Assembly: GCA_024222685.1 (NCBI GenBank)
Contig: JAAEOZ010000621.1
Coordinates: forward strand, 1-32,339
Source: Gammaproteobacteria bacterium
GTDB taxonomy: Bacteria > Pseudomonadota > Gammaproteobacteria > GCA-001735895
Direction: 5' to 3'
Length of the DNA: 32,339 nt
This document shows, piece after piece, positions 4,463-20,953 of the stretch. The translations under genes and the position numbers were made by a program. Positions within the stretch are counted from its first letter, which is position 1. Every line of letters begins with the position of its first letter. The notes beneath the pieces are model-generated. The model made no database searches. It was not told the DNA's origin and was given only the letters and a program-made list of their open reading frames with translations.

Positions 4463-6532
4463 ATGAGCAGAGACCCAAGGTACGACATCTTATTTGAACC
4501 TGTAAAAATAGGCCCGGTGACGGCCAAAAACCGTTTTTATCAGGTGCCTCATTGCAATGGCGGTGGTTATCGGGATCCATCCGCAGTCGCCGAAATGCGT
4601 CGCGTCAAATCCGAAGGCGGCTGGGGAGTAATATTTACCGAGCAGACCGAATTACACCATAGTTCAGAGATCTCACCGTTCATCGAATTACATTTATGGG
4701 ACGATGATGACATGCCTATGCTCGCCAAAATGAGCGACGCCATGCACGAATTCGATGCACTTGCCGGTATCGAACTGGCTTACTCCGGCGTCAACGGGCC
4801 AAACTTATATAGCAAGGAAGTACCACTTGCACCCACTGCGATGCCAATACGTACTTTTACCAATGATCCGGTTTCTGCAAGGGCTATGACGCGAAAGGAT
4901 ATCCGCGATCTACGCCGCTGGCATCGCAATGCATTTAAGAGGGCAAAATCCGCAGGCTACGATCTGGTGTGTTTATACGGTGCACATGGATTTGGCATTA
5001 TTCAACATTTTCTATCGACAGCAACTAATCAGCGCTGCGATGAGTATGGTGGTTCGCTCGAGAATCGTTGCCGTCTCATGCGCGAACTCATCGAAGAAGG
5101 CAAAGATGCCATCGGCGATAGTTGTGGTATTACGCTACGTCTGTCTCTCGATGAAACAATCGGTGATCTGGGTTTTTCCAATAGCGAAGTGCGAGATTTG
5201 ATCGAAATGCATAGCGAGCTACCCGACCTCTGGGACCTCGCTCACGGCAGTTGGGAAGACTGTTCGGGACCCTCGCGCTTTACCGAAGAAGCGGCACAGC
5301 AGAAGTTAGTCACCGGAATAAAATCGCTCACGTCAAAGCCGGTAGTCGGTGTAGGACGCTTTACCTCACCCGATGTCATGGTGAAACAGGTTAACTCGGG
5401 CGTGCTCGATTTTATCGGCTGCGCAAGACCCTCGATCGCAGATCCCTTTTTACCAAAGAAAATCAACGAAGGCCGTATTGAAGATATCCGAGAATGTATC
5501 GGCTGTAACATCTGTATCAGCGGCGATATGACTATGTCACTATCCCGCTGCACACAAAACCCGACCTTCATGGAGGAGTGGCGCAAAGGCTGGCACCCGG
5601 AAAAAATACAGGCCAGAGGCGACAGCGAGTCGGTGCTCATCGTCGGCGCCGGCCCGGCTGGACTCGAAGCCGCCCGCGCGCTGGGGCTGCGTGGATATCA
5701 GGTTGTCCTCGCCGAAGCCACCACAGAACTCGGTGGCCGGGTCAGCAGAGAAAGACAGTTGCCGGGGCTCTCCGCCTGGGGACGAGTCGCCGACTATCGT
5801 GCATATCAGATCAGCCAGATGACAAATGTCGAAGTTTATCTGGACAACCAGCTGAGTGCTGACGATATTCTCGACTTCGGTTTTCAGCACGTCGCGCTGG
5901 CAACCGGTTCGCACTGGCGAAATGATGGTGTGGCGCGAATCCATCTAACAGCGTTTAACAATGATGCATCAATACCGGTCTTTACTCCTGACGACATCAT
6001 GACCGGTAAGGCCATCGAAGGCGAAGTGATCGTCTTTGATGACGATCACTATTACATGGGTGGTGTCATTGCCGAGAAACTGGTCGAACAGGGCGCTAAA
6101 GTCACGTTGATTACGCCTGCGGCTTATGTCTCAGAGTGGACTAACAACACACTGGAGCAGGCGACTATTCATCGTCGACTGGTTGAGCTTGGCGTTGAAG
6201 TCGTACTTAATCGATCGGTATCGCAAATAAGCCAGCAGAGAGTCGAAACCAGCTGCGTATTTTCTGGGCAAACAAACTCTCAACCAGCCGATGCTGTAAT
6301 TATGGTTACCTCCCGGACAGGTGACGATAGTTTATGGCTGGAACTCGAGGCCAGACAAAATGAATGGGCCAAAAGCGGTATCCAGAGCATAAAGCTTATT
6401 GGCGATGCCGAGGCACCCGCACCAATCGCCTGGGCAACGTATGCCGGGCACCGTTATGCTCGAGAGCTGGATATGCCCGATATTGGCGATGAGCTACCTT
6501 TTCGTCGCGAAGTGACTGGATTAAAGGATTGA
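4463..6532 (+). CDS. Trimethylamine/dimethylamine dehydrogenase-like FMN/4Fe-4S oxidoreductase
   Basis: A 689-residue protein with a strong Shine-Dalgarno (GAGGAGA at 4450). Residues 1-370 form an Old Yellow Enzyme-type TIM barrel. Cys31 in FYQVPHC matches the Cys30 that forms the 6-S-cysteinyl FMN link in trimethylamine dehydrogenase. Tyr172 and His175 in YGAH match its Tyr169/His172. The 4Fe-4S ligands are Cys345, 348, 351 and 363. Residues 391-425 carry the GAGPAG nucleotide-binding motif of the C-terminal ADP-binding region. The family oxidatively demethylates methylated amines and passes electrons to ETF. Odd points, from recalled residue roles: the substrate-bowl Tyr60 is Gln61 here, as I recall for dimethylamine dehydrogenase, and Trp355 is Asp355. 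Trimethylamine is thus unlikely to be the substrate; a secondary amine or another N-methyl compound is likelier. The last 48 bases recur near 13000. Confidence 0.87.
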   Translation: MSRDPRYDILFEPVKIGPVTAKNRFYQVPHCNGGGYRDPSAVAEMRRVKSEGGWGVIFTEQTELHHSSEISPFIELHLWDDDDMPMLAKMSDAMHEFDALAGIELAYSGVNGPNLYSKEVPLAPTAMPIRTFTNDPVSARAMTRKDIRDLRRWHRNAFKRAKSAGYDLVCLYGAHGFGIIQHFLSTATNQRCDEYGGSLENRCRLMRELIEEGKDAIGDSCGITLRLSLDETIGDLGFSNSEVRDLIEMHSELPDLWDLAHGSWEDCSGPSRFTEEAAQQKLVTGIKSLTSKPVVGVGRFTSPDVMVKQVNSGVLDFIGCARPSIADPFLPKKINEGRIEDIRECIGCNICISGDMTMSLSRCTQNPTFMEEWRKGWHPEKIQARGDSESVLIVGAGPAGLEAARALGLRGYQVVLAEATTELGGRVSRERQLPGLSAWGRVADYRAYQISQMTNVEVYLDNQLSADDILDFGFQHVALATGSHWRNDGVARIHLTAFNNDASIPVFTPDDIMTGKAIEGEVIVFDDDHYYMGGVIAEKLVEQGAKVTLITPAAYVSEWTNNTLEQATIHRRLVELGVEVVLNRSVSQISQQRVETSCVFSGQTNSQPADAVIMVTSRTGDDSLWLELEARQNEWAKSGIQSIKLIGDAEAPAPIAWATYAGHRYARELDMPDIGDELPFRREVTGLKD
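6485..6532 (+). repeat. 3' end of the oxidoreductase gene, copy 1 of a 48-base direct repeat
   Basis: These last 16 codons (GDELPFRREVTGLKD plus stop) recur at 12971-13018, in the same orientation, with 43 of 48 bases identical. The five differences are all A/G transitions, and three of them are silent, including TGA versus TAA. The two copies bracket the two signalling genes. Confidence 0.9.
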
Positions 6533-6604
6533 TGGTGTAACCACTAGATTAACCCCAATGGCGTCCTATACTAATACTATTCAAATAACCTATAACCCTT
6601 TATT

Positions 6605-9600
6605 TTGAATCAGGAATATATAAATCCTCGCGACGCTTCAAAGTCTAAACAGGAACTTCTGGATGAGGTTCACCTGTTGCGTAAAAGGCTATCAGAGATG
6701 GAAAGCAGCCTCAGCGCAAGAAAGCAACGCGAGCAAACCCTGTCGAGCACGATAAAGCTTGGATACTGGGAATGGGACGAGATAAAGCAATACCCCAGGT
6801 ATCTCTCCGAGGAATTTGCAACTATATTTGGACTGAGTCAGGAGCAACTATACGAAATATACCAGTGTGAAGAAGATTTATATCGTTTTATACATCCTGA
6901 TGATCTTGAACGATATAAACAGCAAGTATTGATATCAGCAAAGGATAAAAGTACAGACAAACAGGCTCGTGTGCATAACTATCGCATTGTCAGACCTGGT
7001 GGAGAAGTACGCTTCGTGCGGGAAATAAATATCGGAATTGTGGAGCGTGATGGTGTGCTGCTTCGATCCTATGGCGCTATTCAGGATACCACGGAGTATC
7101 ATCGGTCCCTGATTGAATCCCGAAAAAGTGAAGAACGATACGGTTCCCTGTTTTCGAAATTACCCATTGGCGTTCAGGAGCAGGACTGGTCCTCGATTAA
7201 AAAGTCGGTCGATAAACTGCAATCCGAAGGGGTCGAGGATTTAAAAGGATATCTTAAAAATAACCCCGCCATATTAAAGAACTTGGTGGATACAATCCAG
7301 ATCACCAGCGTCAATGATGCTATGTTGAAAATATACGGGGCCGAAACCAGAGAAGAGCTTGTCCATGACGAAGAAGATGTTGCGGATTGGTGGGATGAAA
7401 GATGGGCAGAGCTTTATGCCTCTGAAATTACCGCTCTCGCTGGCCCCAGCAGAATAAATTATGCAGAGCTCACAGAAACTCGTGTAGACCAGTCTAACTT
7501 TGAAACCCGCCTGATTACCAGTATTGTCAAAGGCGACGAAGACACCTGGCAAAGAGTTCTTACTATCATCGAGGATGTTACCGAACGCAAACAAAATGAA
7601 GTAGCATTAATCAGGGCCAAGGACTCGGCAGAACAGGCGAGCAGGGCGAAAAGTGAGTTTCTGGCGACGATGAGCCACGAAATCCGTACGCCTATTAATG
7701 GCGTGCTTGGAATGACCGAGTTATTAATGGGCGCCGATCTCGATATGCATTCCCGGCGTCTTGCAACCACCGCGCATCGGTCGGCCGAATCGTTACTCGA
7801 CATCATTAACGATATTCTTGATTTCTCAAAGATTGAAGCCGAAAAGATGGAGCTTAGCGAAGCAGGTTTTGACCTCAGGCAAGTACTTGAAGATGTACTC
7901 GAAATGATTGCTGGTCAGGCCCATCGAAAAGGCCTGAAGTGTATTGCAAATTTACCCCCCGACCTTCCGCGACTGGTCAGAGGTGATGCGGTACGGTTGC
8001 GCCAGATAATGGTGAATATACTGGGAAATGCGACCAAATTTACCGAGCATGGAGAAATCCGGCTATTGGCTAAAGTGGAAGCCCGAAGCGTTGACAAATA
8101 CCATATGGTCTTTGAGATTTCGGACACGGGGCCGGGTATCCCACTCGAACAACAGGAAAATATATTCAATGCTTTTAGCCAGGTCGACAGCACAACCACC
8201 CGCCGTTTTGGTGGCACCGGGTTAGGGCTGGCGATTACCTTGCGACTTTTAGACTTAATGGGCGGCCAGATAGAGCTTGAAAGCGCACCGGGCAGAGGCA
8301 CTCTGTTTCGATTAAAAATCCCACTGGCTGTTGGCAATAACGAGAACAGTCAGCCAAAATCGCCCGAAGCCCTGGTCAATTTACGCATATTGATAGTCGA
8401 CGATCATGCGATTAATCGCGATATTCTAAGTAATCAGGTGATTGCCTGGGGCATGCGCTACGACAATGTTGAATCCGGCATTAGAGCGATAGAACTGGTT
8501 CGTAAGGCGCAGACCGAGAATGACCCATACCGGATAGTCCTGCTTGACTGGCATATGCCGGACATGGACGGGCTCGAACTGGCCAGAACATTGAGCACTG
8601 ACCCAACTATCCATACCCCCCAACTGATCATGCTCAGTTCGACCGGATTTGACCCGAATTCTGAGACGGCGAAAAAAGCATCCATTACATGCTATTTGCA
8701 AAAACCGGTCAGACAGAAATTACTACTGGATTGCCTGTGCGGAGTGATAGGCGAAGAGCAGTCGAGCGGAACAACAGAAGCCGGGCAAGCACACCGGTTT
8801 GACTGCAAAATACTGCTCGCCGAAGACAATCTGGTAAACCAGGAAGTAGCGCTAGGCATGCTCAGGGCGCTGAGTTGTCAGGTGGATCTGGCTGAAAATG
8901 GTGAAGAAGCGGTGATAGCCGCAAAGGCAAAACGCTATGACCTGATACTAATGGACTGCCATATGCCGGAAATGAATGGTTTTACCGCGAGTCAACAGAT
9001 CCGTGACGATGAAAAACAGCAGGGTATTTCCCGAATTCCGATCGTGGCCTTAACCGCCGATATCAAAAAAGGTATTGAAGTTGAATGCGGCGAGGCGGGT
9101 ATGGATGGTTACCTGAGTAAGCCGTTTAGCCAGGCTAAACTATCGGCGTTATTAAGCCAGTGGCTAACGCCTACAGCAGAGGCAAGCAGCTCAACGGCGG
9201 AACAATCACCGCATGACGTGCTTGAAAAGCGGCTGGATACCGACGTTCTGGCCCAATTAAGACAACTGTCGAGTACCACTGGACGTGACATTCTCGGTAA
9301 ATCGGTCCGATTTTTTCTACAGCAAACACCTGAAGATATCATCAGGCTTCACCAGTCAGTGGCTCAAAACGATTATGAGTCGGTGAGAACCATCGCCCAC
9401 AGCCTGAAGTCATCAAGTGCCAATCTCGGAGCAATGACGCTCTCACAGCTATTCCAGCGGCTAGAAGACAGGGCTCATGATGAATGTGCGGAAGTCATAT
9501 CCGAACTATTGCCGGCGATTGATGCGCTGCTCCCCAAAGTGCTGGACGAGCTACGGCAAGAGATAGACATCGATAAGGAAAGCATCGCTAATCTGCCCGA

Positions 9601-11734
9601 AGAAAAACAGTTGCCACAGGCGACATCGGCACCATCCATATTACTGATCGATGACGATGCCGGATTCAGGCTGACCACATCGGAGGCGCTCAAAGCTACC
9701 GGGTTTAGCGTAAGAGAAGCTTCAGATGGTGAACTGGCATTGTCTGAACTGGATCAGTCGATCCCCGATCTGATATTACTGGATGCCATCATGCCCGGTA
9801 TAGATGGCTTTGAAGTCTGTGAGCAAATTCGAAAAAGAAGCGATACCCGGAATATCCCGGTCATAATATTAACTGGGCTGGGAGATATGGAATCGGTTAA
9901 TCGAGCATTCCAGTCCGGAGCTACCGATTTTATAGTAAAGCCGATCAATTACGCAGTGCTGAGTTCCCGCATTCGATTCCAGCTCCGCGTCGCTGATAAT
10001 CTCATGGAATTGGATATTAGCCGGGGATGGTTAGCGAACGCACAACGCATTAGCGGTATTGGTTACTGGCAATGGGATTCGAGTACTGACAAGATCGAAA
10101 TATCTGAGCAACTTGCAGAAATGCTCGCGATAGGAGACATATCGAGTATTAACAGTCTGACAGATTACATAAACCTGATTCACCCACAGGACCAGGAATT
10201 TATCCGTAGTAATATCCTCACCGCGTGTCAGAGTGGTGAAGCCAGTTCCGAGGATTATCGATTGCTCACTTTACACTCCGAGACGCTGGTGGTTCATCAG
10301 GAGTTAGCACGACCGGAGAATTCTGGAGATATCGTTTTAGGTACCGTACAGAATATTACGCAGCAGCGTGAATCGGAAAAAATGATACGCCAGCTTGCCT
10401 ACTCGGATGCGTTGACGGGTCTGGCGAACCGGGCTTATTTCTATAAGCATCTTGAAGATGTCATCAAAGCATCTCATCGTCGAAATGAACGCTTTGCAAT
10501 ACTCTTTCTAGACCTGGATGAATTCAAGGAAATCAATGACAGCCTGGGTCACGATGCGGGCGATATATTGCTTAAGCAGATTGCACAACACCTGAAAAAG
10601 GCCGTCAGAGAAGTTGATTTCGTGGCACGCCTGGGTGGAGATGAATTCTGTATCGTGAGTTGTGACATCTCTGATCAATACGATGCGGCCTATATTGCCA
10701 ATCGTTGCCTGGAGGAGATTAATGTGCCTGTTGATTTGGGAAAGCAGGTTGTCCGCCCCAGATGCAGCATCGGTATTGCCTACTTCCCGGACGATGGTGA
10801 CGATTCCCGATCATTAATGAAAGCCGCCGATAGCGCCATGTACGCCGCGAAGGAATCCGGCAAACACCGTTATGTATTTTACCAGCCTGATTTTACCAGG
10901 CAGGCAGAGGAACGACTGCAAATCGAACAGGATTTACGCTTGAGCATCGATAAGAAAGAACTGGTGCTTCATTATCAACCCCAGGTCGATCTCAGAACTG
11001 GCCGTATGATGGGTATTGAGGCCCTGGTGCGCTGGAATCACCCAACACGAGGTATGATATTACCGCAGGAGTTTATCGATATTGCCGAGCGAATCGGTTT
11101 CATAAAACCTTTGGGGCACTGGGTGCTGGAAACAGCATGCCAGCAGGCTATAGCCTGGAATAAAGCAGGACTGCCTCACTTCAAACTGGCCGTTAATATT
11201 TGTTCCAGCCATTTCCAGGATTCAGGCTTTATCAAGATGGTTGAGAAAATATTGGCCGATAGTGGATTCCCTGGTTCATCGCTTGAGTTCGAAGTCACCG
11301 AGAGTGTTACTCATCCTGTCAGGAAGAATGTATCGACATTTGATCACCTGCAGAAAATGGGAATCAAACTTGCAATCGATAATTTTGGTACAGGGTATTC
11401 TTCTCTGGCATCTCTCATGCAACTGCCCATTGATAGTCTCAAAATTGATCGGCTTTTTATTGCCGATATGCTACAGGATCCAAAATCATCGATGTTACTC
11501 GGCACAATCGTCGGTGTTGCCCATGCGCTTGGTCATATTGTGGTAGCGGATGGTCTGGAACAGGAAGACCAGGTGAAAGTATTAAATGCCATTGGTTGCG
11601 ATGTCATTCAGGGTGATTTTTTTAGTAAGCCGGTACCTGCAGACGAGATATTAAACCTGGCACTTACCGACTTTCTATCGGCTAATATTCCTGTTAAAAC
11701 AACATCTTCCCAACTCAAACTGAAAACATTATGA
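6605..11734 (+). CDS. Giant hybrid sensor kinase / diguanylate cyclase-phosphodiesterase (PAS-PAS-HK-REC-REC-HPt-REC-PAS-GGDEF-EAL)
   Basis: A 1709-residue soluble protein with no membrane segment. In order: N-terminal coiled coil (15-45), PAS (about 45-160), a second PAS-like region (170-330), HisKA with His358 in SHEIRTP, HATPase with N box and GTGLGLAI, receiver 1 (Asp648), receiver 2 (Asp784), HPt (His932 in AHSLKSSS), receiver 3 (Asp1060), PAS (about 1140-1255), GGDEF (1344-1348) with DLDEFK and an intact RxxD I-site five residues upstream, and EAL (1472-1474). This is a complete intramolecular phosphorelay ending in c-di-GMP turnover. The cyclase looks active. The EAL domain keeps EAL, the VNI Asn, the TES Glu and Lys, but has DNFG instead of DDFG and VADGLE instead of VAEGVE. 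The start is uncertain: TTG at 6605 has no clear Shine-Dalgarno, while the ATG at 6698 has AAGG but would cut the coiled coil. Confidence 0.9.
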   Translation: MNQEYINPRDASKSKQELLDEVHLLRKRLSEMESSLSARKQREQTLSSTIKLGYWEWDEIKQYPRYLSEEFATIFGLSQEQLYEIYQCEEDLYRFIHPDDLERYKQQVLISAKDKSTDKQARVHNYRIVRPGGEVRFVREINIGIVERDGVLLRSYGAIQDTTEYHRSLIESRKSEERYGSLFSKLPIGVQEQDWSSIKKSVDKLQSEGVEDLKGYLKNNPAILKNLVDTIQITSVNDAMLKIYGAETREELVHDEEDVADWWDERWAELYASEITALAGPSRINYAELTETRVDQSNFETRLITSIVKGDEDTWQRVLTIIEDVTERKQNEVALIRAKDSAEQASRAKSEFLATMSHEIRTPINGVLGMTELLMGADLDMHSRRLATTAHRSAESLLDIINDILDFSKIEAEKMELSEAGFDLRQVLEDVLEMIAGQAHRKGLKCIANLPPDLPRLVRGDAVRLRQIMVNILGNATKFTEHGEIRLLAKVEARSVDKYHMVFEISDTGPGIPLEQQENIFNAFSQVDSTTTRRFGGTGLGLAITLRLLDLMGGQIELESAPGRGTLFRLKIPLAVGNNENSQPKSPEALVNLRILIVDDHAINRDILSNQVIAWGMRYDNVESGIRAIELVRKAQTENDPYRIVLLDWHMPDMDGLELARTLSTDPTIHTPQLIMLSSTGFDPNSETAKKASITCYLQKPVRQKLLLDCLCGVIGEEQSSGTTEAGQAHRFDCKILLAEDNLVNQEVALGMLRALSCQVDLAENGEEAVIAAKAKRYDLILMDCHMPEMNGFTASQQIRDDEKQQGISRIPIVALTADIKKGIEVECGEAGMDGYLSKPFSQAKLSALLSQWLTPTAEASSSTAEQSPHDVLEKRLDTDVLAQLRQLSSTTGRDILGKSVRFFLQQTPEDIIRLHQSVAQNDYESVRTIAHSLKSSSANLGAMTLSQLFQRLEDRAHDECAEVISELLPAIDALLPKVLDELRQEIDIDKESIANLPEEKQLPQATSAPSILLIDDDAGFRLTTSEALKATGFSVREASDGELALSELDQSIPDLILLDAIMPGIDGFEVCEQIRKRSDTRNIPVIILTGLGDMESVNRAFQSGATDFIVKPINYAVLSSRIRFQLRVADNLMELDISRGWLANAQRISGIGYWQWDSSTDKIEISEQLAEMLAIGDISSINSLTDYINLIHPQDQEFIRSNILTACQSGEASSEDYRLLTLHSETLVVHQELARPENSGDIVLGTVQNITQQRESEKMIRQLAYSDALTGLANRAYFYKHLEDVIKASHRRNERFAILFLDLDEFKEINDSLGHDAGDILLKQIAQHLKKAVREVDFVARLGGDEFCIVSCDISDQYDAAYIANRCLEEINVPVDLGKQVVRPRCSIGIAYFPDDGDDSRSLMKAADSAMYAAKESGKHRYVFYQPDFTRQAEERLQIEQDLRLSIDKKELVLHYQPQVDLRTGRMMGIEALVRWNHPTRGMILPQEFIDIAERIGFIKPLGHWVLETACQQAIAWNKAGLPHFKLAVNICSSHFQDSGFIKMVEKILADSGFPGSSLEFEVTESVTHPVRKNVSTFDHLQKMGIKLAIDNFGTGYSSLASLMQLPIDSLKIDRLFIADMLQDPKSSMLLGTIVGVAHALGHIVVADGLEQEDQVKVLNAIGCDVIQGDFFSKPVPADEILNLALTDFLSANIPVKTTSSQLKLKTL

Positions 11735-12594
11735 CGGAATTAAAGCGTAATGGTATGACCGGACTCGAACAGTTAAACACCCTTAAGCTGCCTAGCTTAC
11801 CGGCCGGGACACCGTATTTAATAAAATCGCTATCTAATGAAAATATTGATTTTGCTGAACTCGCTTCGATTGTCGAAAAATTTCCCAGTATTGCAGGTAA
11901 GCTAATATCGCTTGCAAATTCAGTCTGGTCTGCCCCGGCATCGGCCATCACGTCGTTAGAGGATGCCTGTGCACGCCTGGGATTTGACGTCGTCAGAAGC
12001 ACCAGTATCGCACTCGCGATAGCTACCCCATTTAATCCGACAAAATGCCCGGCCTTTGATCCTGAATATTTCTGGTACAGCGCATTAATGACCGCAGATG
12101 CTGCATGCCGTCTCGTACCCGTTTTATCATCCAGCGGTAATCTAAAACCATCGTCAGCGCGCGCCGCAGGTTTGCTACATAATCTGGGGTTACTTTGGCT
12201 GGTCGACAGCTTCCCAGACGAAGTCCATCAAGCACTGACAATGGTTAAGAAAGATCAGTTCACAACTTTGCAGCAGGCACTTTTGCAGATACTCGGATTT
12301 GATCAGATGCAGGCCGGAGGTCATCTCGCTAGTCGTTGGGAATTATCGGAACCATTGGTTTTGGTGATGACTCATTACTCAAAAACCAGTTATCAGGGGC
12401 CACAACGCGAAATAATTACCACCGTGGGCCTGGCTGTCAAGCTGGTTTCAAATACGCTAAAAGAAGTATCCTGTACTGAGCAGGAAACTCGTCAGTGGAA
12501 TTCTGAAATCTCCAGGGATGATTTAAGCGAGGTTTCTGAGCAGCTAAATAAACAGATCGTCAATATCCGAGCCATTGCAAAAGAGTTATTTTGA
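11731..12594 (+). CDS. HDOD domain signalling protein
   Basis: A 287-residue protein whose ATG overlaps the stop of the giant kinase (ATGA at 11731-11734), so the two are translationally coupled. It matches the HDOD fold: LKLPSLPAGTPYLIKSL near the N terminus, a core IVEKFPSIAGKLISLANS, then TSLEDACARLGFDVVRS and AGLLHNLGLLWL. HDOD domains descend from HD phosphohydrolases but lack most of the metal-binding set. Here LLHNLG replaces the HD pair, so no hydrolase activity is expected. Such proteins often act downstream of c-di-GMP or two-component proteins. Inference: it is the output partner of the coupled kinase. No output domain besides HDOD is seen. Confidence 0.85.
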   Translation: MTELKRNGMTGLEQLNTLKLPSLPAGTPYLIKSLSNENIDFAELASIVEKFPSIAGKLISLANSVWSAPASAITSLEDACARLGFDVVRSTSIALAIATPFNPTKCPAFDPEYFWYSALMTADAACRLVPVLSSSGNLKPSSARAAGLLHNLGLLWLVDSFPDEVHQALTMVKKDQFTTLQQALLQILGFDQMQAGGHLASRWELSEPLVLVMTHYSKTSYQGPQREIITTVGLAVKLVSNTLKEVSCTEQETRQWNSEISRDDLSEVSEQLNKQIVNIRAIAKELF

Positions 12595-12637
12595 CCACTA
12601 TTGATTTTATTATTTTCTCAAAAGCAATCACCAGTTA

Positions 12638-12668
12638 TCCCGCCTGGATTCCCGCACTATCGGCGGGA
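12638..12668 (+). terminator. REP-like hairpin / possible terminator after the HDOD gene
   Basis: A 7-bp perfect stem TCCCGCC (12638-12644) / GGCGGGA (12662-12668) with a 17-base loop containing TGGATTCCCGC, followed by TATTTTCC. It lies 43 bases after the HDOD stop codon. The T-run is short and interrupted, so termination would be weak. The TGGATTCCCGC core resembles dispersed palindromes common in proteobacteria, so it may be a REP-type element instead. Confidence 0.5.
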
Positions 12669-12772
12669 TATTTTCCAGTATGACCACACAACCGCCACTA
12701 CGGTTGAAAATACAATCAAAACTATTCCGAGTCTGACCATTTCCTTCGAGAGACATATTTCAGTTTTCAAGC

Positions 12773-12979
12773 TTATTCTTCAATCTTTTTGATCCGCCAC
12801 TTTTGGCGCTCGCTATCCCAGTTAACATCTTTCCAGTAGTTTGAATAATACCGTGCAGCATTTAATCCTTTAGGTACCTGAAAGTCGACATAGTCATGAT
12901 GGAGTTTGAGGTATTCCTTTTGATATTTCTTACTACTTTGTAACCAATAGTTATTTTCAACATCGCTAATGGCGATGGG
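12773..12979 (-). pseudogene. 3' remnant of an unrecognised minus-strand gene
   Basis: A 68-codon open frame on the minus strand ends at TAA (12775-12773) with a convincing protein-like C terminus rich in Tyr, Lys and Trp (ENNYWLQSSKKYQKEY, then NWDSERQKWRIKKIEE). It has no start codon. Reading upstream it meets a stop (TAG, 12982-12980) just beyond the point where the oxidoreductase-derived sequence begins (about 12971). It therefore looks like the tail of a gene cut at that junction. I do not recognise the family. Confidence 0.5.
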
Positions 12980-13018
12980 CTACCTTTTCGTCGCGAAGTG
13001 GCTGGATTGAAAGATTAA
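12971..13018 (+). pseudogene. Truncated 3' end of a trimethylamine-dehydrogenase-like gene (copy 2 of the repeat)
   Basis: This encodes GDGLPFRREVAGLKD and a stop, matching the C terminus of the oxidoreductase at 4463-6532 in 43 of 48 bases and 13 of 15 residues. The homology ends abruptly at its 5' side, where it meets the minus-strand gene remnant. The pattern of silent changes suggests it once evolved as a coding sequence, so it is best read as the scar of a lost paralogue rather than a fresh duplication. Confidence 0.8.
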
Positions 13019-13262
13019 TTTTCTGTATAGACTTTCTGGCTTAAAATTAACACTAATACCTTCGTTGCTCTTTAAGTCCTGATAAAAGACAGGCTCACTA
13101 CAGCTCTACCTTTGAACAACCGATAATTTTTATTTACCTAAGTTGTTTTCTATCTTGACAAATTCGTTCCGACATACAACACTCGTAGGTCTATATCGGG
13201 ACATGAATTATAGATTCCGAATTTGTTTTTATAGTTATAACGCAGATATAGGCATAATAATA

Positions 13263-13838
13263 ATGATAGATGCAGCGATAAATCATATCGCAAGTAATGT
13301 TAATAAACACTTGATGCGTACCTTCGACCATAGCGAAGATATAGTTGTGGTATCGAATATCCTTGAGCAGGATGGCTCAGTCTCAGCTAATGTAGCCAAC
13401 AAAATCATCCTCTCGCTGGTTAATGTTGAAAAGGATAGTGTCGCCTATAAACAACCGGTAGCAGTTGCTGCGGCTGGTTTACGTGCTGTCAATTCCAGCC
13501 ACCCCATGCACTTTAATCTATATCTGATGGTTGCCAGTTATTTTGGTGGCAACAACTATCAGGAAGGGCTCAAACATATTTCCAGCACCATTAGCTACTT
13601 TCAGGGCCAACCCGTTTTCGATCACCATAATTCACCCGGACTAGATCGCAGTATCGATAAGCTGATTCTTGAGATCGAAAATCTGAGCCTGGGTGACTTA
13701 AGCAGCCTTTGGAGTATATTAAGCGGCAAGTACCTGCCTTCAGTACTCTACAAGGTACGCATGGTGAGCTACGACTCGAATGTGGTAAGTGGGCAATCAC
13801 CCGTCATATCGCGAACTCAGACAAAACTAACGTCCTAG
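13263..13838 (+). CDS. eCIS tail terminator/cap protein (DUF4255, Afp16/Pvc16-like)
   Basis: First gene of the contractile injection system. From the ATG at 13263 the product is 191 residues and opens MIDAAINHIASNVNKHLM, the standard start of the DUF4255 (Pvc16 N-terminal) family. Further family features are ANKIILSLVNVEKD, HFNLYLMVASYFGGNNYQEG, ISYFQGQPVFDHHNSPG and LYKVRMVSYD. In Afp and PVC particles this protein closes the upper end of tube and sheath and is needed for correct length. The frame is open further upstream (to 13143), but that extension has no family similarity and overlaps the expected promoter region, so the later ATG was chosen; its Shine-Dalgarno is weak. It ends 16 bases before the next gene. 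Unlike in Afp/PVC loci, where this gene comes late, it leads the operon here. Confidence 0.85.
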   Translation: MIDAAINHIASNVNKHLMRTFDHSEDIVVVSNILEQDGSVSANVANKIILSLVNVEKDSVAYKQPVAVAAAGLRAVNSSHPMHFNLYLMVASYFGGNNYQEGLKHISSTISYFQGQPVFDHHNSPGLDRSIDKLILEIENLSLGDLSSLWSILSGKYLPSVLYKVRMVSYDSNVVSGQSPVISRTQTKLTS

Positions 13839-13854
13839 CGACTGGAGCTAAGGG

Positions 13855-14781
13855 TTGAGCAATTATCAAACACTACTGAGAATTGCTGTAAAACACCGTT
13901 ATCATCGGGCACAGACATGCCACTGCCTGCACTTTTATCCCAGCGAAAAAACCCGGAAGGTGTTTGATAACACAGGGATTCTATGCAGACCGAGCAATGA
14001 CGGTATTCTGCTGGCATACGATCAAAGTCGGGTCGAGGCATTGCGACTTTACGCAGAAGACAAAACCGAACCACTTTACTTTGAATTCAAGGTATTTAGC
14101 AGCGACCCGCATTTCAAAAGCTATACCGAACCCTATGGACTCGACAACGAAGCCATCCTGTACTTTAACAATAGCGCTACTTCAAAGCCAGACTCAATGC
14201 ATCTGAGCCAGTTAGATTTGGCCTCCGGTCAAGACCTGAAAACACTAGATGATTTTAAAGTACTCAACGATACAGAAGACAAAGCCGAACCGGAAACCGT
14301 TTCCTTAAGAACGATCCTGTCACCACAGGACTTTCTCATGCCACCAGTTTTTGTCCTGCATATTTTTACCAATGGCGGCCAGGGATCATTTCTCGAACAA
14401 TGGCTGGTTGGCACACCAACTCAATATGTCATCCATTTCGATAGTCGCGAACGCTACTGGAAATATTATCTGCTTGGCAATATGGCCGACGAAAATCATG
14501 CCAGCGAAGACTACTACGTAGTCGATCCAGATAATGTAATTCAGTTTGAAACACTGGGCGAGGAGTTTTTGCCTGGCAGGAAACGCGTCTTTACTTTTAA
14601 GTCAAAGCAGAAAATTCCTTTAACTGAAGATTATTCCTTTCAATTTCAATTGAAGAAAAAAGACCGCGGCATGGATGCCCTCATAATTGACGGCTTACCC
14701 GTCGCCGATGTGAAACAAGTGGGAAAAGATAGCCCAACAGGAGCAGACAATATCGTATCTGAAATTTATATTAATAGTTAA
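13855..14781 (+). CDS. Conserved-looking eCIS-associated protein of unknown function
   Basis: A 308-residue protein between the terminator and the sheath. The TTG start has GGAG with a 7-base spacer, 16 bases after the previous stop, so it is part of the operon. No signal peptide, membrane segment or known catalytic motif is visible. The sequence is rich in alternating hydrophobic/polar strands (for example YFEFKVFSSD, YVIHFDSRERYWKYYLL, RKRVFTFKSKQKIPL), suggesting an all-beta structural protein. The N-terminal LLRIAVKHRYH and the mid-protein FVLHIFTNGG look like conserved blocks. Position beside the DUF4255 gene suggests a second cap component or a cap-proximal adaptor; that is inference only. 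It has no counterpart that I recognise in the Afp or PVC sets. Confidence 0.7.
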   Translation: MSNYQTLLRIAVKHRYHRAQTCHCLHFYPSEKTRKVFDNTGILCRPSNDGILLAYDQSRVEALRLYAEDKTEPLYFEFKVFSSDPHFKSYTEPYGLDNEAILYFNNSATSKPDSMHLSQLDLASGQDLKTLDDFKVLNDTEDKAEPETVSLRTILSPQDFLMPPVFVLHIFTNGGQGSFLEQWLVGTPTQYVIHFDSRERYWKYYLLGNMADENHASEDYYVVDPDNVIQFETLGEEFLPGRKRVFTFKSKQKIPLTEDYSFQFQLKKKDRGMDALIIDGLPVADVKQVGKDSPTGADNIVSEIYINS

Positions 14782-14814
14782 CAATCCAGCAATTAACAAT
14801 CAAAGGGGAACATT

Positions 14815-16437
14815 ATGGCAATGAAAACACCCGGCGTTTATATCGTAGAAAAAAATGCTTTTCCGAACTCAGTAGTTGAAGTCGCGACTGCAGTACCCGC
14901 ATTTGTCGGTTACACCGCAAAAGCAGACAATAAAGGCAAATCCCTTGCTAATAAACCACAGAAAATCACCTCGATGGCGGAGTATCGTAATTTATTCGGT
15001 GGTCCACCAAAACCCAGGTTTTCGATAGTCGAACCACAAGCAGATGAAGAAGCTGACTTTTCATTGAGTGACGGCAAAAGTTTCGTACTGAGAAAAGAGA
15101 CCGGCAAGTTCCTGCTTTATTACAGCATGATGCTGTTTTTTCAAAATGGCGGAGGCCCCTGCTATATCGTTTCGGTCGGCCAATACGGTGCGCTCAACGC
15201 TGCCGACAAGGTAACCCCCAGAAAAGTTGACAAAGCAGATGCTAAGGACGTAGATGATAAGGCTGCGGCCCCTGCAGCCAGCGGTGTCGAAGCTTCAAAA
15301 TTACAGGCTGGTATTAAGCTGTTAATCAAGGAGCAGGAACCTACCATGGTGATAATACCTGAAGCCGTACTGTTAGAACCTGGCGAGTGTATTTCTACTC
15401 AACAGGCAATGGTCAATCACTGTGGCATCGAAATGAAGAGCCGCATGGCCATTCTGGATGTCTGGGGCGGCGATAAAGATGAAAACACCAATAACTGCAT
15501 CTCAAATTTTCGCAATAGCCTCGCTATCGATACACCAGATTTTGCCAGTGCTTATTACCCCTGGTTGAATACCACCATTATTGAAGACAGTGATTTAAAC
15601 TTCGACAACTTTGCCGACAAAACGAAGCTAAGGGACTTACTCGAGACAGATATCAAAGGCCGTAAGGCTCAGGATGAACGCTCAAAGGCTATCAAGGAAC
15701 AACAACTGGCTCAAATTGGAGAAATTGCCAAAACCTGGGAGGCCAACATTGACCCCGACGATGCCAAAGCAGTAGCTGATAAAGACCAGAAAGCAAAAAG
15801 CCTGGTCACCATGTCGCCTCTTTACGTCAACCTCCTCGCCGCAGTAAAAAAGAAAATCAACTTACTCCCCCCTGCTGCTGCAATGGCCGGTGTTTATACT
15901 CGGGTTGATAATTTGCGCGGTGTCTGGAAAGCACCTGCTAACGTCAGCCTCATCGCAGTGGTCTCTCCAACTGTCGAAATAAGCCACTATGATCAGGAGG
16001 ATCTAAACGTCCACGTCAAGGGAAAGTCGATTAACGCCATACGCAGTTTCATCGGTGAGGGTACATTGGTGTGGGGTGCTAGAACTCTCGATGGCAATAG
16101 CCTTGACTGGCGCTACGTGAACGTGCGCCGCACCATGATTATGCTCGAAGAATCCATTCGTCTGGCAGCCAAGGCTTACGTTTTCGAACCTAATGTAGCC
16201 AATACCTGGGTGACGATAAAAAGCATGATTCGCAATTTCCTCACGGGCATCTGGAAACGTGGTGGCCTTGCAGGCGCTGTACCTGATGACGCTTTCAATG
16301 TGTATGTCGGTCTCGGAGAAACCATGACTGCAGAAGATATTCTTGAAGGCATTCTGCGTGTGACTGTACTGGTAGCAATCAGTCGACCAGCCGAATTTAT
16401 CGAGATTACCTTCCAGCAAAAAATGCAGGAGTCATAA
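14815..16437 (+). CDS. eCIS contractile sheath protein (Afp2-4/Pvc2-4-like)
   Basis: A 540-residue sheath subunit with a strong Shine-Dalgarno (AAAGGGGAA) before ATG 14815. The N terminus has the canonical TPGVYIVEKN and the VPAFVGYTAKA segment. The C-terminal half carries GVYTRVDNLRGVWKAPAN, GTLVWGARTLDGNSLDWRYVNVRR and VAISRPAEFIEITFQQ, the conserved sheath core shared with phage and type VI sheaths. It polymerises around the inner tube and contracts on firing. Only one sheath gene is present, whereas Afp and PVC carry three. Two long hydrophilic, Lys/Asp/Ala-rich insertions (about residues 125-165 and 280-335) are not part of the conserved core and probably lie on the particle surface. Confidence 0.95.
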   Translation: MAMKTPGVYIVEKNAFPNSVVEVATAVPAFVGYTAKADNKGKSLANKPQKITSMAEYRNLFGGPPKPRFSIVEPQADEEADFSLSDGKSFVLRKETGKFLLYYSMMLFFQNGGGPCYIVSVGQYGALNAADKVTPRKVDKADAKDVDDKAAAPAASGVEASKLQAGIKLLIKEQEPTMVIIPEAVLLEPGECISTQQAMVNHCGIEMKSRMAILDVWGGDKDENTNNCISNFRNSLAIDTPDFASAYYPWLNTTIIEDSDLNFDNFADKTKLRDLLETDIKGRKAQDERSKAIKEQQLAQIGEIAKTWEANIDPDDAKAVADKDQKAKSLVTMSPLYVNLLAAVKKKINLLPPAAAMAGVYTRVDNLRGVWKAPANVSLIAVVSPTVEISHYDQEDLNVHVKGKSINAIRSFIGEGTLVWGARTLDGNSLDWRYVNVRRTMIMLEESIRLAAKAYVFEPNVANTWVTIKSMIRNFLTGIWKRGGLAGAVPDDAFNVYVGLGETMTAEDILEGILRVTVLVAISRPAEFIEITFQQKMQES

Positions 16438-16493
16438 AACATTTGCAAGGGTACTAATATCACTTTTTTCCAAAATTATACAGGTATATAAAC

Positions 16494-16952
16494 ATGGCCG
16501 ATGATGGATCTGCACAATCAACAACCGTATGGCCCATTTCAAAATTTTTCTTTGAAGTTAAATGGGATAAAGAAGTAATGTCTTTTCAAGAAGTTTCCGG
16601 TCTAGATACAGAATCACAACCCATTGAATATCGTCATGGGGACAGTCCGGAATTTTCAGTAATCAAAATGCCGGGCATCAAGAAGTTTAGTAATGTCACA
16701 ATGAAAAAGGGTATTTTCAAATCGGACAACAAGTTCTGGGACTGGTACAGCCAAATCAAGATGAACACCATTAAGCGTGTCCCGGTGACAATCAGCCTGC
16801 TGGATGAAAAAGGCGCGCCAACAATGGTATGGATACTGGCCAACGCCTGGCCGTCCAAAATAACCGGAACTGATTTGAAATCAGATGGTAACGAAGTTGC
16901 CATCGAGACGATCGAAATCGTTCACGAAGGCGTTACTATAGACAACGATTAG
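16494..16952 (+). CDS. eCIS inner tube protein 1 (Afp1/Pvc1-like, T4 gp19 family)
   Basis: A 152-residue tube subunit of the phage T4 gp19-like family (PF06841). It shows KFFFEVKW, the FQEVSGLDTESQPIEYRHGDS strand pair, KFSNVTMKKGIF and the terminal GNEVAIETIEIVHEGV, all standard for eCIS tubes. It stacks as hexameric rings inside the sheath. It lies 56 bases after the sheath, with AGG about 10 bases before the ATG. A hairpin in the 98-base gap after it may help set its high expression relative to the baseplate genes. Length and sequence are typical and no anomalies were seen. Confidence 0.94.
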   Translation: MADDGSAQSTTVWPISKFFFEVKWDKEVMSFQEVSGLDTESQPIEYRHGDSPEFSVIKMPGIKKFSNVTMKKGIFKSDNKFWDWYSQIKMNTIKRVPVTISLLDEKGAPTMVWILANAWPSKITGTDLKSDGNEVAIETIEIVHEGVTIDND

Positions 16953-16980
16953 GCTCACTATAATTTATTTTTTAATAGCG

Positions 16981-17007
16981 ACCGACCCGGCACATGGAGG
17001 TGTCGGT
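16981..17007 (+). promoter_or_regulatory. Hairpin between the two tube genes
   Basis: ACCGAC-CC (16981-16988) can pair with GG-T-GTCGGT (16999-17007), giving an eight-pair stem with one mismatch around a 10-base loop. No T-run follows on either strand, so it is not a standard Rho-independent terminator. It may act as an mRNA 3'-end stabiliser, a processing site or an attenuator that lets sheath and tube 1 be made in excess of the downstream baseplate proteins (inference). Confidence 0.45.
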
Positions 17008-17050
17008 ATATCAGGGCAACTAAAAACAAACCTATCTCTGGGGAGGGTTT

Positions 17051-17506
17051 ATGCTGGGTGATAACTACCCACTGCCATCTTTTTATTTCAAGGTTGTATT
17101 TGCCGCAACAGCGAGCATGACAGACACTTCGTTTCAGGAAGTGTCTGGTATAAAAGCAACAATCGAAACCGAGTCGTATACCGAACTGGGCGAAAATGGT
17201 TTTACCTTCCAGTTACCGAAGCCAGCCACCTACACCAACCTGATTTTAAAACGTGGTATCGCCAGCACGACGTCACCACTGGTGCTCTGGTGTCGATCAA
17301 TTTTTGAGAGTGATTTTGGGACTCCCCTAATACCGATGGAAATACTGGTTTACCTGATGGACGACAAGCAAACACCTCAACGAGCCTGGGGATTTTCAAA
17401 TGCCTTCCCGGTGAGCTGGGATGTCGACAGCTTCAACTCCAGTAAAAATGAAGTGGCAATTGAAACTGTAGAACTACGTTACAACTATCTGACCAGAATA
17501 CTGTAG
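17051..17506 (+). CDS. eCIS inner tube protein 2 (Afp5/Pvc5-like, T4 gp19 family)
   Basis: A 151-residue tube-family protein with an excellent Shine-Dalgarno (GGGGAGGG, 4-5 bases before ATG). It shares the tube fold: PSFYFKVVFAA, TSFQEVSGIKATIETESYTE, YTNLILKRGI, WGFSNAFPVSWDVDSFNSS and the terminal NEVAIETVELRYNYL. It is clearly distinct from tube 1. In Afp/PVC the corresponding protein forms the lowest tube layer next to the baseplate, so this one is expected to be the baseplate-proximal ring rather than the bulk tube. It is followed after 4 bases by the small DUF5908 gene. Confidence 0.93.
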   Translation: MLGDNYPLPSFYFKVVFAATASMTDTSFQEVSGIKATIETESYTELGENGFTFQLPKPATYTNLILKRGIASTTSPLVLWCRSIFESDFGTPLIPMEILVYLMDDKQTPQRAWGFSNAFPVSWDVDSFNSSKNEVAIETVELRYNYLTRIL

Positions 17507-17510
17507 TGCG

Positions 17511-17681
17511 ATGACGATTGAAATTAAACAAATGATTATCAAGTCCACCCTGATTGGAAATGATAATGAACATTCAGATTCAATGGGCGATCCTGTCGAT
17601 CTTGAGTCATTCAGAGAAAGCCTCATGGAAGAATGCAAAGCATTATTAGAAGCAAATCTAAGCGAACAGAAGGAACGATAA
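17511..17681 (+). CDS. Small DUF5908 protein (Afp6/Pvc6-like)
   Basis: A 56-residue protein beginning MTIEIKQMIIKSTLIG and ending in a charged helix (LMEECKALLEANLSEQKER). Short proteins that open with an IEIK-hydrophobic strand and end in a helix at this spot in eCIS operons belong to DUF5908, the Afp6/Pvc6 position. The role is unknown; an assembly or tube-baseplate adaptor is possible. It begins 4 bases after tube 2, and its TAA is immediately followed by the ATG of the next gene, so it is firmly within the operon. The conserved position and coding character support it despite its size. Confidence 0.8.
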   Translation: MTIEIKQMIIKSTLIGNDNEHSDSMGDPVDLESFRESLMEECKALLEANLSEQKER

Positions 17682-18374
17682 ATGACAACATCGAGCACAG
17701 GTGAAAAAGACAAATTATCCATTTCGGTTTGCGATGTCGATAACAATGGCAAAATCACTGTCAACGAAGGCAAGACATTTAAATTCATGCTCAACCCTTC
17801 CGAGTATGACCACTCATTTGAAATCCAGTATAGCCAGAGGGAGGCAATGGGTCAGTCGGGGTCCGATGTTAAATTCGCCGGCGTTAAGCCAGAGAAATTA
17901 AAATTCAACACGCTGATTGATGTCACTGGTGCTATCAGCGGGCCAGATTTAGTCACCAAAGACGTCAAGACTCAAATTAAAGAATTAAAAGAAATCGTCT
18001 ACCAGTACGCTGGCAACGATCACGAACCCAATCATATCCGAGTCTTATGGGGCAGCCAGATCTTTTATGGCCGACTGGACACCATGAAAGTTGAGAACAC
18101 CCTGTTCAAACCCAGTGGCGAACCCCTCAGAGCCAAACTACAGCTCAGCTTTCTGGGTTTCATGAGCAAGGAGGAAGAAGCGCTACGCGCCAACCGATCC
18201 TCACCCGATATGACGCATCTGATCGAAGTCAAAGCTGGCGACACCCTGCCCATGCTGTGTTATCGCGTTTACAAAGACTGCGCCTATTACCCGGATATTG
18301 CCAGAATTAACAAACTGACAGATTTTCGCGATATTAAACCCGGCAGTAAACTGCACTTCCCCCCCCTGAGATAA
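17682..18374 (+). CDS. eCIS tube-baseplate protein with C-terminal LysM (Afp7/Pvc7-like)
   Basis: A 230-residue protein. Residues 10-165 match the CIS tube/baseplate hub family (FKFMLNPSEYDHSFEIQYSQR, LKFNTLIDVTG, NHIRVLWGSQIFYGRLDTMKV, GEPLRAKLQLSFLGF). Residues 178-229 form a LysM module (HLIEVKAGDTLPMLCYRVY to IKPGSKLHFPPL). In Afp/PVC this protein joins the first tube ring to the spike hub. LysM in this position is usually a structural element, though peptidoglycan contact is possible. The gene starts directly after the previous stop and ends 2 bases before the VgrG-like gene. Confidence 0.9.
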   Translation: MTTSSTGEKDKLSISVCDVDNNGKITVNEGKTFKFMLNPSEYDHSFEIQYSQREAMGQSGSDVKFAGVKPEKLKFNTLIDVTGAISGPDLVTKDVKTQIKELKEIVYQYAGNDHEPNHIRVLWGSQIFYGRLDTMKVENTLFKPSGEPLRAKLQLSFLGFMSKEEEALRANRSSPDMTHLIEVKAGDTLPMLCYRVYKDCAYYPDIARINKLTDFRDIKPGSKLHFPPLR

Positions 18375-18376
18375 GC

Positions 18377-20167
18377 ATGACTGATTCCCCTCAACTCGAC
18401 AGTAGCGGCGTTATTAAATTAAGCGTATTCAGCAATAGCGCACCGATCGACGACACAATCAGCATTGAATCCATTGTGATAACCCAGAGCATTAATAAAA
18501 TTCCACATGCAAAAATCACCATACTGGACGGTGACATGCCCAATAAAGATTTCCCTGTGAGTAACGATAAGACTTTTATCCCAGGCAACGAGATTGAAAT
18601 TAAAGCAGGATACGATCAGTCCGAGGATAGTATTTTTAAGGGTATTGTAATTCGACACGGCCTCAGGATTAGCGGACAGAACAATTCAAAGCTGGTGATT
18701 GAATGTCGAGACAAGGCCGTCGCAATGACCATCGGTCGACATAATGCCAACTATATCGACTCTAAGGATAGCGACATCATCACCAGTATTATTTCAAAAT
18801 ATGGCCAACTGAATAAAGAAGTCGAGGCCACTACCACGACACATAAAGAACTGGTTCAGTACTACTGCAGTGACTGGGATTTCCTCTTATCCCGGGCCGA
18901 AGTAAATGGACTGCTCATCTGTATTGAAGACGCCAAACTAACCGTAAAGTCACCACAAACCAGCGCTACTGCCGAGCTGGCACTTAGCTATGGTGACGAC
19001 ATCCTCGAATTTCAGGCCGATATCGATGCCCGGTCACAGTTTTCAGCCGTCAACGCGGTAAGCTGGGATCCTGACGTCCTGGCCATAGTAGAAGAACAGG
19101 CAGGCCCCGCCAGTCTCAACCGGCAAGGTAACTTAAGCAGCAAAGATCTGGCAACGGTAGTTGACCTGAAATCGCTACGATTGCAATCGGCCAGCCAACT
19201 GGATCAATCGGCCCTGAAAGACTGGGCGAATGGACAACAGATAAAAGCCGGTCTTGCCAGAATCCGCGGCAATGTTAAGTTTCAGGGCAACGCAAAAGCC
19301 AGGGCTGGCAGCTTGATCGATCTTGCCGGAGTCGGTGAGCGTTTTAACGGCAGCATCTTTGTGGGTTCCGTCAAACACCAGATTTCACAGGGTAACTGGA
19401 CAACCGAAGTTGATTTCGGTCTACCACCCGAGTGGTTCGCTGAAAAGCGCGATCTGGTCGCACCACCTGCGTCAGGACTAATACCAGGCGTAGAAGGCCT
19501 GCAAATCGGTGTTGTAATGAAACTCGATGAAGATCCGAAAGAACAGAACCGCATTCAGGTATCTGTGCCGATATTACAGGCAGAAACCGAAGGCGTCTGG
19601 GCCCGCCTGGCCAATTTCTATGCCTCTAATACATTTGGAAATTTCTTTATCCCAGAAATTGGGGACGAAGTGATACTGGGTTATTTAAACAATGATCCAT
19701 CCAGCCCGGTGATATTAGGCAGTCTTTACGGCAACAAACAGGTCCCGCCCTACGAATTCACGGCGAACAATTTCACCAAAGCCATTGTTACCAAAAGCCA
19801 GCTTAAAATTGAATTTGATGATGATAAAAAAATCATCACCATCACCACACCGGGGGAAAATCAGTTTATTTTCAGTGACGAAGACAGGTCCATCCAGATG
19901 CAGGATCAAAATAACAATAAGGTGACACTCAATTCCGACGGCATTTCACTCAGTAGCCCAAAGGACATCAAAATTTCAGCCCAGGGCCAAATCAGCCTCG
20001 ATGCAATGGACAAAATCGACCTGAGTGCCAAAGCCGACATTTCAGCTGCAGGCTTGAACGTCAATCTGGATGCGCAGGTCGGTATCACCGCCAAAGGCAG
20101 CGCCAGTGCAGAACTGTCCGCATCGGGCCAAACCACCATTAAAGGTGCCATGGTCATGATTAATTAA
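18377..20167 (+). CDS. eCIS spike/hub protein (VgrG-like, Afp8/Pvc8)
   Basis: A 596-residue protein. Residues 1-345 resemble the gp27/GpD-like hub (IKLSVFSNSAPIDDTISIESI at the start; TKELVQYYC-type turn in HKELVQYYCSDWDFLLSRAE). Residues about 375-455 form the gp5 OB fold (QIGVVMKLDEDPKEQNRIQV, GNFFIPEIGDEVILGYLNND, PVILGSLYG). Residues 500-596 are beta-helix repeats ending GQTTIKGAMVMIN. It trimerises into the puncturing spike beneath the tube. There is no C-terminal effector extension, so it is a structural rather than an evolved VgrG. The tip is provided by the PAAR protein encoded 24 bases downstream. Confidence 0.94.
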   Translation: MTDSPQLDSSGVIKLSVFSNSAPIDDTISIESIVITQSINKIPHAKITILDGDMPNKDFPVSNDKTFIPGNEIEIKAGYDQSEDSIFKGIVIRHGLRISGQNNSKLVIECRDKAVAMTIGRHNANYIDSKDSDIITSIISKYGQLNKEVEATTTTHKELVQYYCSDWDFLLSRAEVNGLLICIEDAKLTVKSPQTSATAELALSYGDDILEFQADIDARSQFSAVNAVSWDPDVLAIVEEQAGPASLNRQGNLSSKDLATVVDLKSLRLQSASQLDQSALKDWANGQQIKAGLARIRGNVKFQGNAKARAGSLIDLAGVGERFNGSIFVGSVKHQISQGNWTTEVDFGLPPEWFAEKRDLVAPPASGLIPGVEGLQIGVVMKLDEDPKEQNRIQVSVPILQAETEGVWARLANFYASNTFGNFFIPEIGDEVILGYLNNDPSSPVILGSLYGNKQVPPYEFTANNFTKAIVTKSQLKIEFDDDKKIITITTPGENQFIFSDEDRSIQMQDQNNNKVTLNSDGISLSSPKDIKISAQGQISLDAMDKIDLSAKADISAAGLNVNLDAQVGITAKGSASAELSASGQTTIKGAMVMIN

Positions 20168-20191
20168 GTCGGAATAACAGAGGAAAACTCT

Positions 20192-20491
20192 ATGCCACCA
20201 GCAGCAAGACTAACAGACATGCATACCTGCCCAATGTCGACACCCGCAGTACCGCCAGTACCACATGTCGGCGGACCAGTTATAGGACCGGGAGTCCCAA
20301 CCGTACTAATTGAAAAAATACCGGCTGCGGCAGTTGGTGATAGCTGCTCCTGTGTGGGGCCACCCGATACGATCGCGAAAGGTTCAGCTACGGTGATGGT
20401 AGGCGGCAAACCGGCGGCGAGAATGGGAGATACAACGGCTCACGGTGGCAGCATCATACTAGGAGCGACGACAGTGATGATTGGCGGTTAG
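20192..20491 (+). CDS. PAAR spike-tip protein (Afp10/Pvc10-like)
   Basis: A 99-residue protein with a GAGGA Shine-Dalgarno 8 bases before ATG. It has the PAAR signature several times over: PPAARLTDMHTCP at the start, AAVGDSCSCVG, KGSATVMVGGKPAARMGDTTAHGG and a terminal GATTVMIGG. The histidines and cysteines (His12, Cys14, the CSC pair, and the His of TAHGG) are placed to bind the single metal ion of the cone tip. It caps the VgrG-like spike. There is no fused toxin, so cargo is expected inside the tube or elsewhere. It comes before the gp25 gene, the reverse of the Afp9-Afp10 order. Confidence 0.93.
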   Translation: MPPAARLTDMHTCPMSTPAVPPVPHVGGPVIGPGVPTVLIEKIPAAAVGDSCSCVGPPDTIAKGSATVMVGGKPAARMGDTTAHGGSIILGATTVMIGG

Positions 20492-20500
20492 GCGTTGCCG

Positions 20501-20926
20501 ATGACTGATAGCAATCAAATGTTTCTCGGCAAAGGCTGGAGTTTCCCACCGGAATTTCGCAAGCAGCACGACAAACTGACCGTGAAAATGGTCAATGAAG
20601 GCGAGGATATCGGTGAAAGCCTCAGAATTTTGCTTTCCACCCGCCCCGGTGAACGGGTCATGCAACCCTCTTATGGCTGCGGATTACACAACATGATATT
20701 TGAATCGATTAGCGAAAGTACCGTTACAGCGCTCAAAGACATCATAGACAGGGCAGTGCTGCATTTTGAACCACGAATCAGGTTGGAAAATATCGAGATC
20801 CATACCGATCAATTACTGGAAGGTCAGTTATTGATCCAGTTGTATTACACCATTCGAAAAACCAATACGCGCAGCAATATCGTTTACCCATTTTACTATC
20901 AGGAAGGCAATCAGGTTCGTGTCTAA
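20501..20926 (+). CDS. Baseplate gp25-like protein (Afp9/Pvc9)
   Basis: A 141-residue protein of the T4 gp25/GpW family (PF04965): LGKGWSFPPEF near the start, then the conserved segment GEDIGESLRILLSTRPGERVMQPSYGCGLHNMIFE containing the Glu-Pro-Arg core that nucleates sheath assembly, and HFEPRIRLENIEI. It links sheath to baseplate wedge. Start choice: a TTG at 20495 lies in frame only 2 bases after AGG, while the ATG at 20501 is 8 bases after the same AGG, so the ATG is preferred. It begins 9 bases after the PAAR gene. Confidence 0.93.
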   Translation: MTDSNQMFLGKGWSFPPEFRKQHDKLTVKMVNEGEDIGESLRILLSTRPGERVMQPSYGCGLHNMIFESISESTVTALKDIIDRAVLHFEPRIRLENIEIHTDQLLEGQLLIQLYYTIRKTNTRSNIVYPFYYQEGNQVRV

Positions 20927-20953
20927 TAGCGACTATAAACGAATTTCATATCA

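Follow-up and report, generated by a model that had tools for sequence, protein, structure and literature searches.

A second 3' end of a dgcA-like gene beside an eCIS locus: a candidate remnant of a duplicated gene

The window, that is the whole stretch of DNA analysed here (32,339 nucleotides), carries two copies of the 3' end of a dgcA-like oxidoreductase gene. One is part of the intact gene and the other lies some 6.5 kb downstream, directly before an eCIS. We think it rather likely that dgcA was once duplicated, that the duplicate lost its body by deletion, and that the downstream copy is what is left of it, an inert remnant of the last 16 codons. It has the look of an unremarkable duplication-and-loss scar, and comparable ones are seen around dgcA in sister species too. 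No sign of selection on it was found and we propose no function for it.

The repeat and its edges

The source of the repeat is a forward-strand gene (positions 4463–6532) for a 689 amino acid FMN/NAD oxidoreductase of the OYE-like two-domain type, with Pfam Oxidored_FMN and pyridine nucleotide redox domains; by comparison with dimethylglycine demethylases we call it dgcA-like. Copy 1 of the repeat (6478–6533, forward strand) is the 3' end of this gene, and the right edge of the repeat falls one base after the stop codon. Copy 2 (12964–13019, forward strand) is an orphan which reads GDGLPFRREVAGLKD-stop and has neither a gene body nor a start codon. The two align without gaps at 49 of 56 bases (88% identity), the longest identical run being 22 bases (6493–6514). 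For a narrower core, 6485–6532 against 12971–13018, the sequence-only reading had reported 43 matches in 48 bases, with all differences transitions and three of them silent. Our recount gave the same figures for this 48-base core, the change of TGA to TAA being counted among the three silent ones; the extension to 56 bases adds two differences, both transversions.

Chance is ruled out as the source of the repeat, the genome-wide E-value of the match being 1.4e-13. The runner-up site in the window reaches 29/56, and no 56-mer taken from elsewhere in the gene does better than 33/56. A third copy is absent from the assembled genome, and the exact pattern of the core found no match in viral contigs. 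The silent changes had also been read as a mark of descent from a coding paralogue. Among the possible transitions in the core codons 37.5% are silent, and three or more silent changes in five are expected 28% of the time without coding constraint (P = 0.28), so that a coding past is not shown by them.

Beyond the edges of the repeat there is no significant homology on either side, and the two 3' flanks compared as a whole gave P 0.37. The short match ACTAATAC, said to follow both stop codons, is indeed present on both 3' sides, 37 and 33 bases past the stops. By shuffling its P is about 0.05, roughly a one-in-twenty coincidence, and we do not rely on it as part of the repeat. When the flanks of the copies were set against the dgcA 3' flank of relatives, no likeness was found beyond a few weak scores; an apparent extension of the repeat past the stop codon to the genome G015 failed (P 0.49).

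Copy 2 has several properties of a gene remnant. It is significantly homologous to a gene that is intact elsewhere in the genome, it is truncated and lacks an intact coding sequence, and foreign sequence stands before it. Neither 12595–12963 nor any other place in the genome yielded a further piece of a second dgcA. Abutting copy 2 on the reverse strand is an open run of 68 codons (12773–12979), perhaps the 3' end of another broken gene. Its codon usage falls among the values of the window's genes and close to the 99th percentile for random sequence free of stops, but an open run of such length has a P of 0.52. Searches of the order, of 369 genomes from the class, of viral contigs and of plasmids gave no homologue. 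NCBIfam returned no family, Pfam returned a weak match (0.05) below its cut-off, and a phage search gave a chance-level match only (E 0.8). A match to HP1029 over 40 residues was weak (E 0.0012 for the whole, 0.03 for the domain) and was not trusted.

The assembly comprises 812 contigs, with contamination of about 5%; the window makes up a single complete contig, whose ends cannot be followed. Misassembly driven by the repeat is unlikely since the longest identical run is so short. The contig could still be chimeric, but the presence of a scrap of this lineage's own dgcA immediately beside the eCIS argues against it. In principle, recombination between the 22 identical bases might yet delete the kinase/HDOD pair.

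Lineage of the scrap and history of dgcA

At eight positions copies 1 and 2 agree on a base found in no more than 3 of 17 orthologues. Neither copy matches any orthologue at more than 42/56, against 49/56 between the two. On this evidence the scrap branched from the dgcA of this lineage, or of a very near one, and a distant eCIS donor is not its source. At position 6515 the three nearest relatives agree with copy 2 and not with copy 1; therefore changes fell on both copies.

Thirteen or more genomes of the genus have a dgcA orthologue, at 75–87% protein identity, and in the tree the gene of this genome groups with those of G011, G012 and G015 (100/99). In most relatives it is preceded by Rid and LysR genes and followed by a cupin gene, within a wider conserved neighbourhood. 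Here dgcA is found outside that ancestral neighbourhood, the rest of which lies on three contigs (C558, C569 and C127) that carry no dgcA. Its current site follows a corrinoid-protein/TPR/alpha-beta-hydrolase locus that is native in this genus. What usually comes after the hydrolase gene in relatives is a Rieske-type oxygenase gene, so named from its sequence, and a LysR-type regulator gene.

Short scraps of dgcA or of its operon partners were found in at least five sister species. In G007 (L208:1093–1344) an intact cupin gene is immediately preceded by what is left of dgcA, a frameshifted 3' end of about 58 codons, the body having been deleted in the ancestral place; no intact dgcA orthologue was found in this genome, which is only 62% complete. 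In G024 an inverted internal piece of 37 codons lies 1.1 kb downstream of the intact gene. G029 has a dgcA piece of 27 codons, and G004 has dgcA in several pieces together with a piece of Rid. In G021 (L049:11497–16684) dgcA and its cupin partner are separated by transporter-like genes. This insert is edged on the left by a 22-base piece of the cupin start and on the right by a 50-codon Rid 3' remnant, which appear to be traces of an older tandem duplication. Because of these remnants in five species, breakage and loss around the dgcA operon appear to be common in the genus, and the scrap described here adds to that pattern.

We propose that dgcA was duplicated and moved from its ancestral operon after the split from the nearest relatives compared. 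One copy would then survive behind the hydrolase gene, and the other would have lost its body by a deletion joining its 3' end to unrelated DNA (the 12773–12979 stretch). The kinase/HDOD pair and the eCIS could have come to flank the scrap before, during or after this deletion. Duplication followed by deletion was one of two readings offered from the sequence alone, and it is the better supported of the two because short remnants of dgcA and its partners turn up in several sister species, G007 among them. The homology, the truncation on one side, the bases peculiar to this lineage, the relocation of dgcA and the other scraps of its operon are observed, whereas we infer the former existence of a full second dgcA, as well as the order of events; a genome intermediate between full duplicate and scrap was not found among those compared. 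Counting against the remnant reading are the missing remainder of a second dgcA and the fact that the repeat halts almost at the stop codon on both sides, where a random breakpoint need not fall.

The kinase/HDOD pair, the eCIS and alternative origins

The segment between the copies holds only a gene for a hybrid sensor kinase with response-regulator, GGDEF and EAL regions (6605–11734, forward strand), that for its HDOD-domain partner (11731–12594, forward strand) and the one unmatched open run. A terminator-like stem-loop follows the pair (12650–12668, forward strand), one such structure being found against 0.6 expected by chance. The copies bracket this pair and end just before the eCIS leader, as had been noted, the gap from copy 2 to the leader's ATG being 243 bases. 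Kinase and HDOD gene occur together widely in the genus, on other contigs or far from dgcA. The HDOD protein is 58–67% identical to those of distant genus members, versus 48–49% to those of the nearest relatives. In the tree it groups with distant species, apart from G011 and G012 (100/100). This grouping conflicts with that of dgcA, and therefore the couple (6605–12594) has probably been transferred, or is a different or hidden paralogue, perhaps of ancient origin.

The main rival to a remnant is a site-specific insertion, the second reading offered earlier, in which an element with the kinase/HDOD pair entered the dgcA 3' end. The element's own copy of the last ~50 bases of dgcA would have restored the gene, the other copy being left at the far side, and the integrase would since have been lost. 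The geometry fits, as the gene is intact and the direct repeats, stop codon included, stand on both sides of the pair, and so does the foreign look of the pair, given the conflict between its HDOD tree and that of dgcA and its presence in relatives on other contigs, away from dgcA. However, the genes between the repeats match no integrase or recombinase model, and neither an empty site nor a free element was found among the genomes compared. In particular, no genome lacking 6533–12970 and retaining a single repeat copy was encountered, and no genus member joins dgcA to an eCIS or to the flank that follows copy 2. The pair, moreover, is a stable couple across the genus with no mobile genes seen beside it. 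The other dgcA scraps of the genus are not confined to gene ends and include internal or inverted pieces, and targeting of a gene end cannot make these. On balance we regard insertion as unlikely.

The eCIS spans 13263–31927, beginning with its leader gene (Pvc16_N; 13263–13838, forward strand). The leader is foreign to the genus, with no match in the other 30 genomes (1 of 31 has the gene), and across 73 eCIS loci the relatives of the sheath are distant (64% identity or less). The kinase/HDOD pair and the eCIS thus both appear out of place for this lineage. The tree conflict of the former and the want of close kin for the leader and sheath of the latter suggest that three blocks, each with its own history, adjoin one another here, and the scrap lies where two of them join. 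As a side observation, L098, L103, L144 and other Nitrosomonas-type eCIS loci have a GGDEF/EAL-type coding sequence just upstream of the sheath match (about 8.4–9.8 kb), with ~42% identity to the C-terminal half of the kinase.

Another conceivable origin is arrival of the scrap with the eCIS, from a donor which had dgcA upstream of its own eCIS and passed on DNA starting inside the final codons of dgcA. The foreign leader and the position of copy 2 directly before the eCIS are in keeping with this. None of the 73 eCIS loci has a dgcA relative nearby, and no genus member examined has dgcA adjoining an eCIS or the kinase. A second full oxidoreductase gene beside an eCIS, which the sequence-only reading had suggested looking for, was accordingly found in none of them. 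Copy 2, at 88% identity to copy 1 against 64% or less for the sheath proteins, also resembles copy 1 down to its lineage-specific bases, and a very close relative would be needed as donor, so that we hold arrival with the eCIS to be improbable.

Slightly less credible still is a short filler, ~50 bases copied from the gene end in the course of break repair, in which case there would never have been a complete second gene. The scrap is indeed no longer than ~50 bases, with none of the gene body left, and short isolated pieces occur also in G024 and G029. Against this, G007 demonstrates that the whole gene is able to shrink to its 3' end in place, and random filler would not be expected to have its edge exactly at a stop codon. 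We give very little credence to the broadest proposal, namely that the dgcA 3' end serves the genus as an integration site for an element without a recognisable integrase, which would bring regulatory genes, and perhaps the eCIS, beside a gene of betaine catabolism.

Comparison with known systems

Our literature search returned general material only. The scrap matters little beyond this locus. A transposon target-site duplication would give short, identical repeats flanking inverted terminal repeats and a transposase gene; here the repeat is about 50 bases long and 10% diverged, and no transposase was found between the copies. A parallel is offered by the attL/attR repeats of genomic islands which are put into the 3' end of a protein-coding gene, such as icd or guaA, by a tyrosine recombinase. 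Shared with these are the direct repeats of a 3' end including the stop codon, the intact gene and a segment between that looks phylogenetically misplaced; the differences are that no integrase was found, that relatives have no empty site and that no excised form is known.

Copy 2 is most like the bacterial gene remnants known as pseudogene fragments, being truncated, devoid of a start codon, homologous to an intact nearby gene and joined to unrelated sequence, although it is shorter than usual for these and ends at the stop codon itself. The dgcA remnant of G007 provides an example. There too the same gene is reduced to its 3' end with the body lost, but that remnant is longer (about 58 codons) and is still in its ancestral place before the cupin gene.
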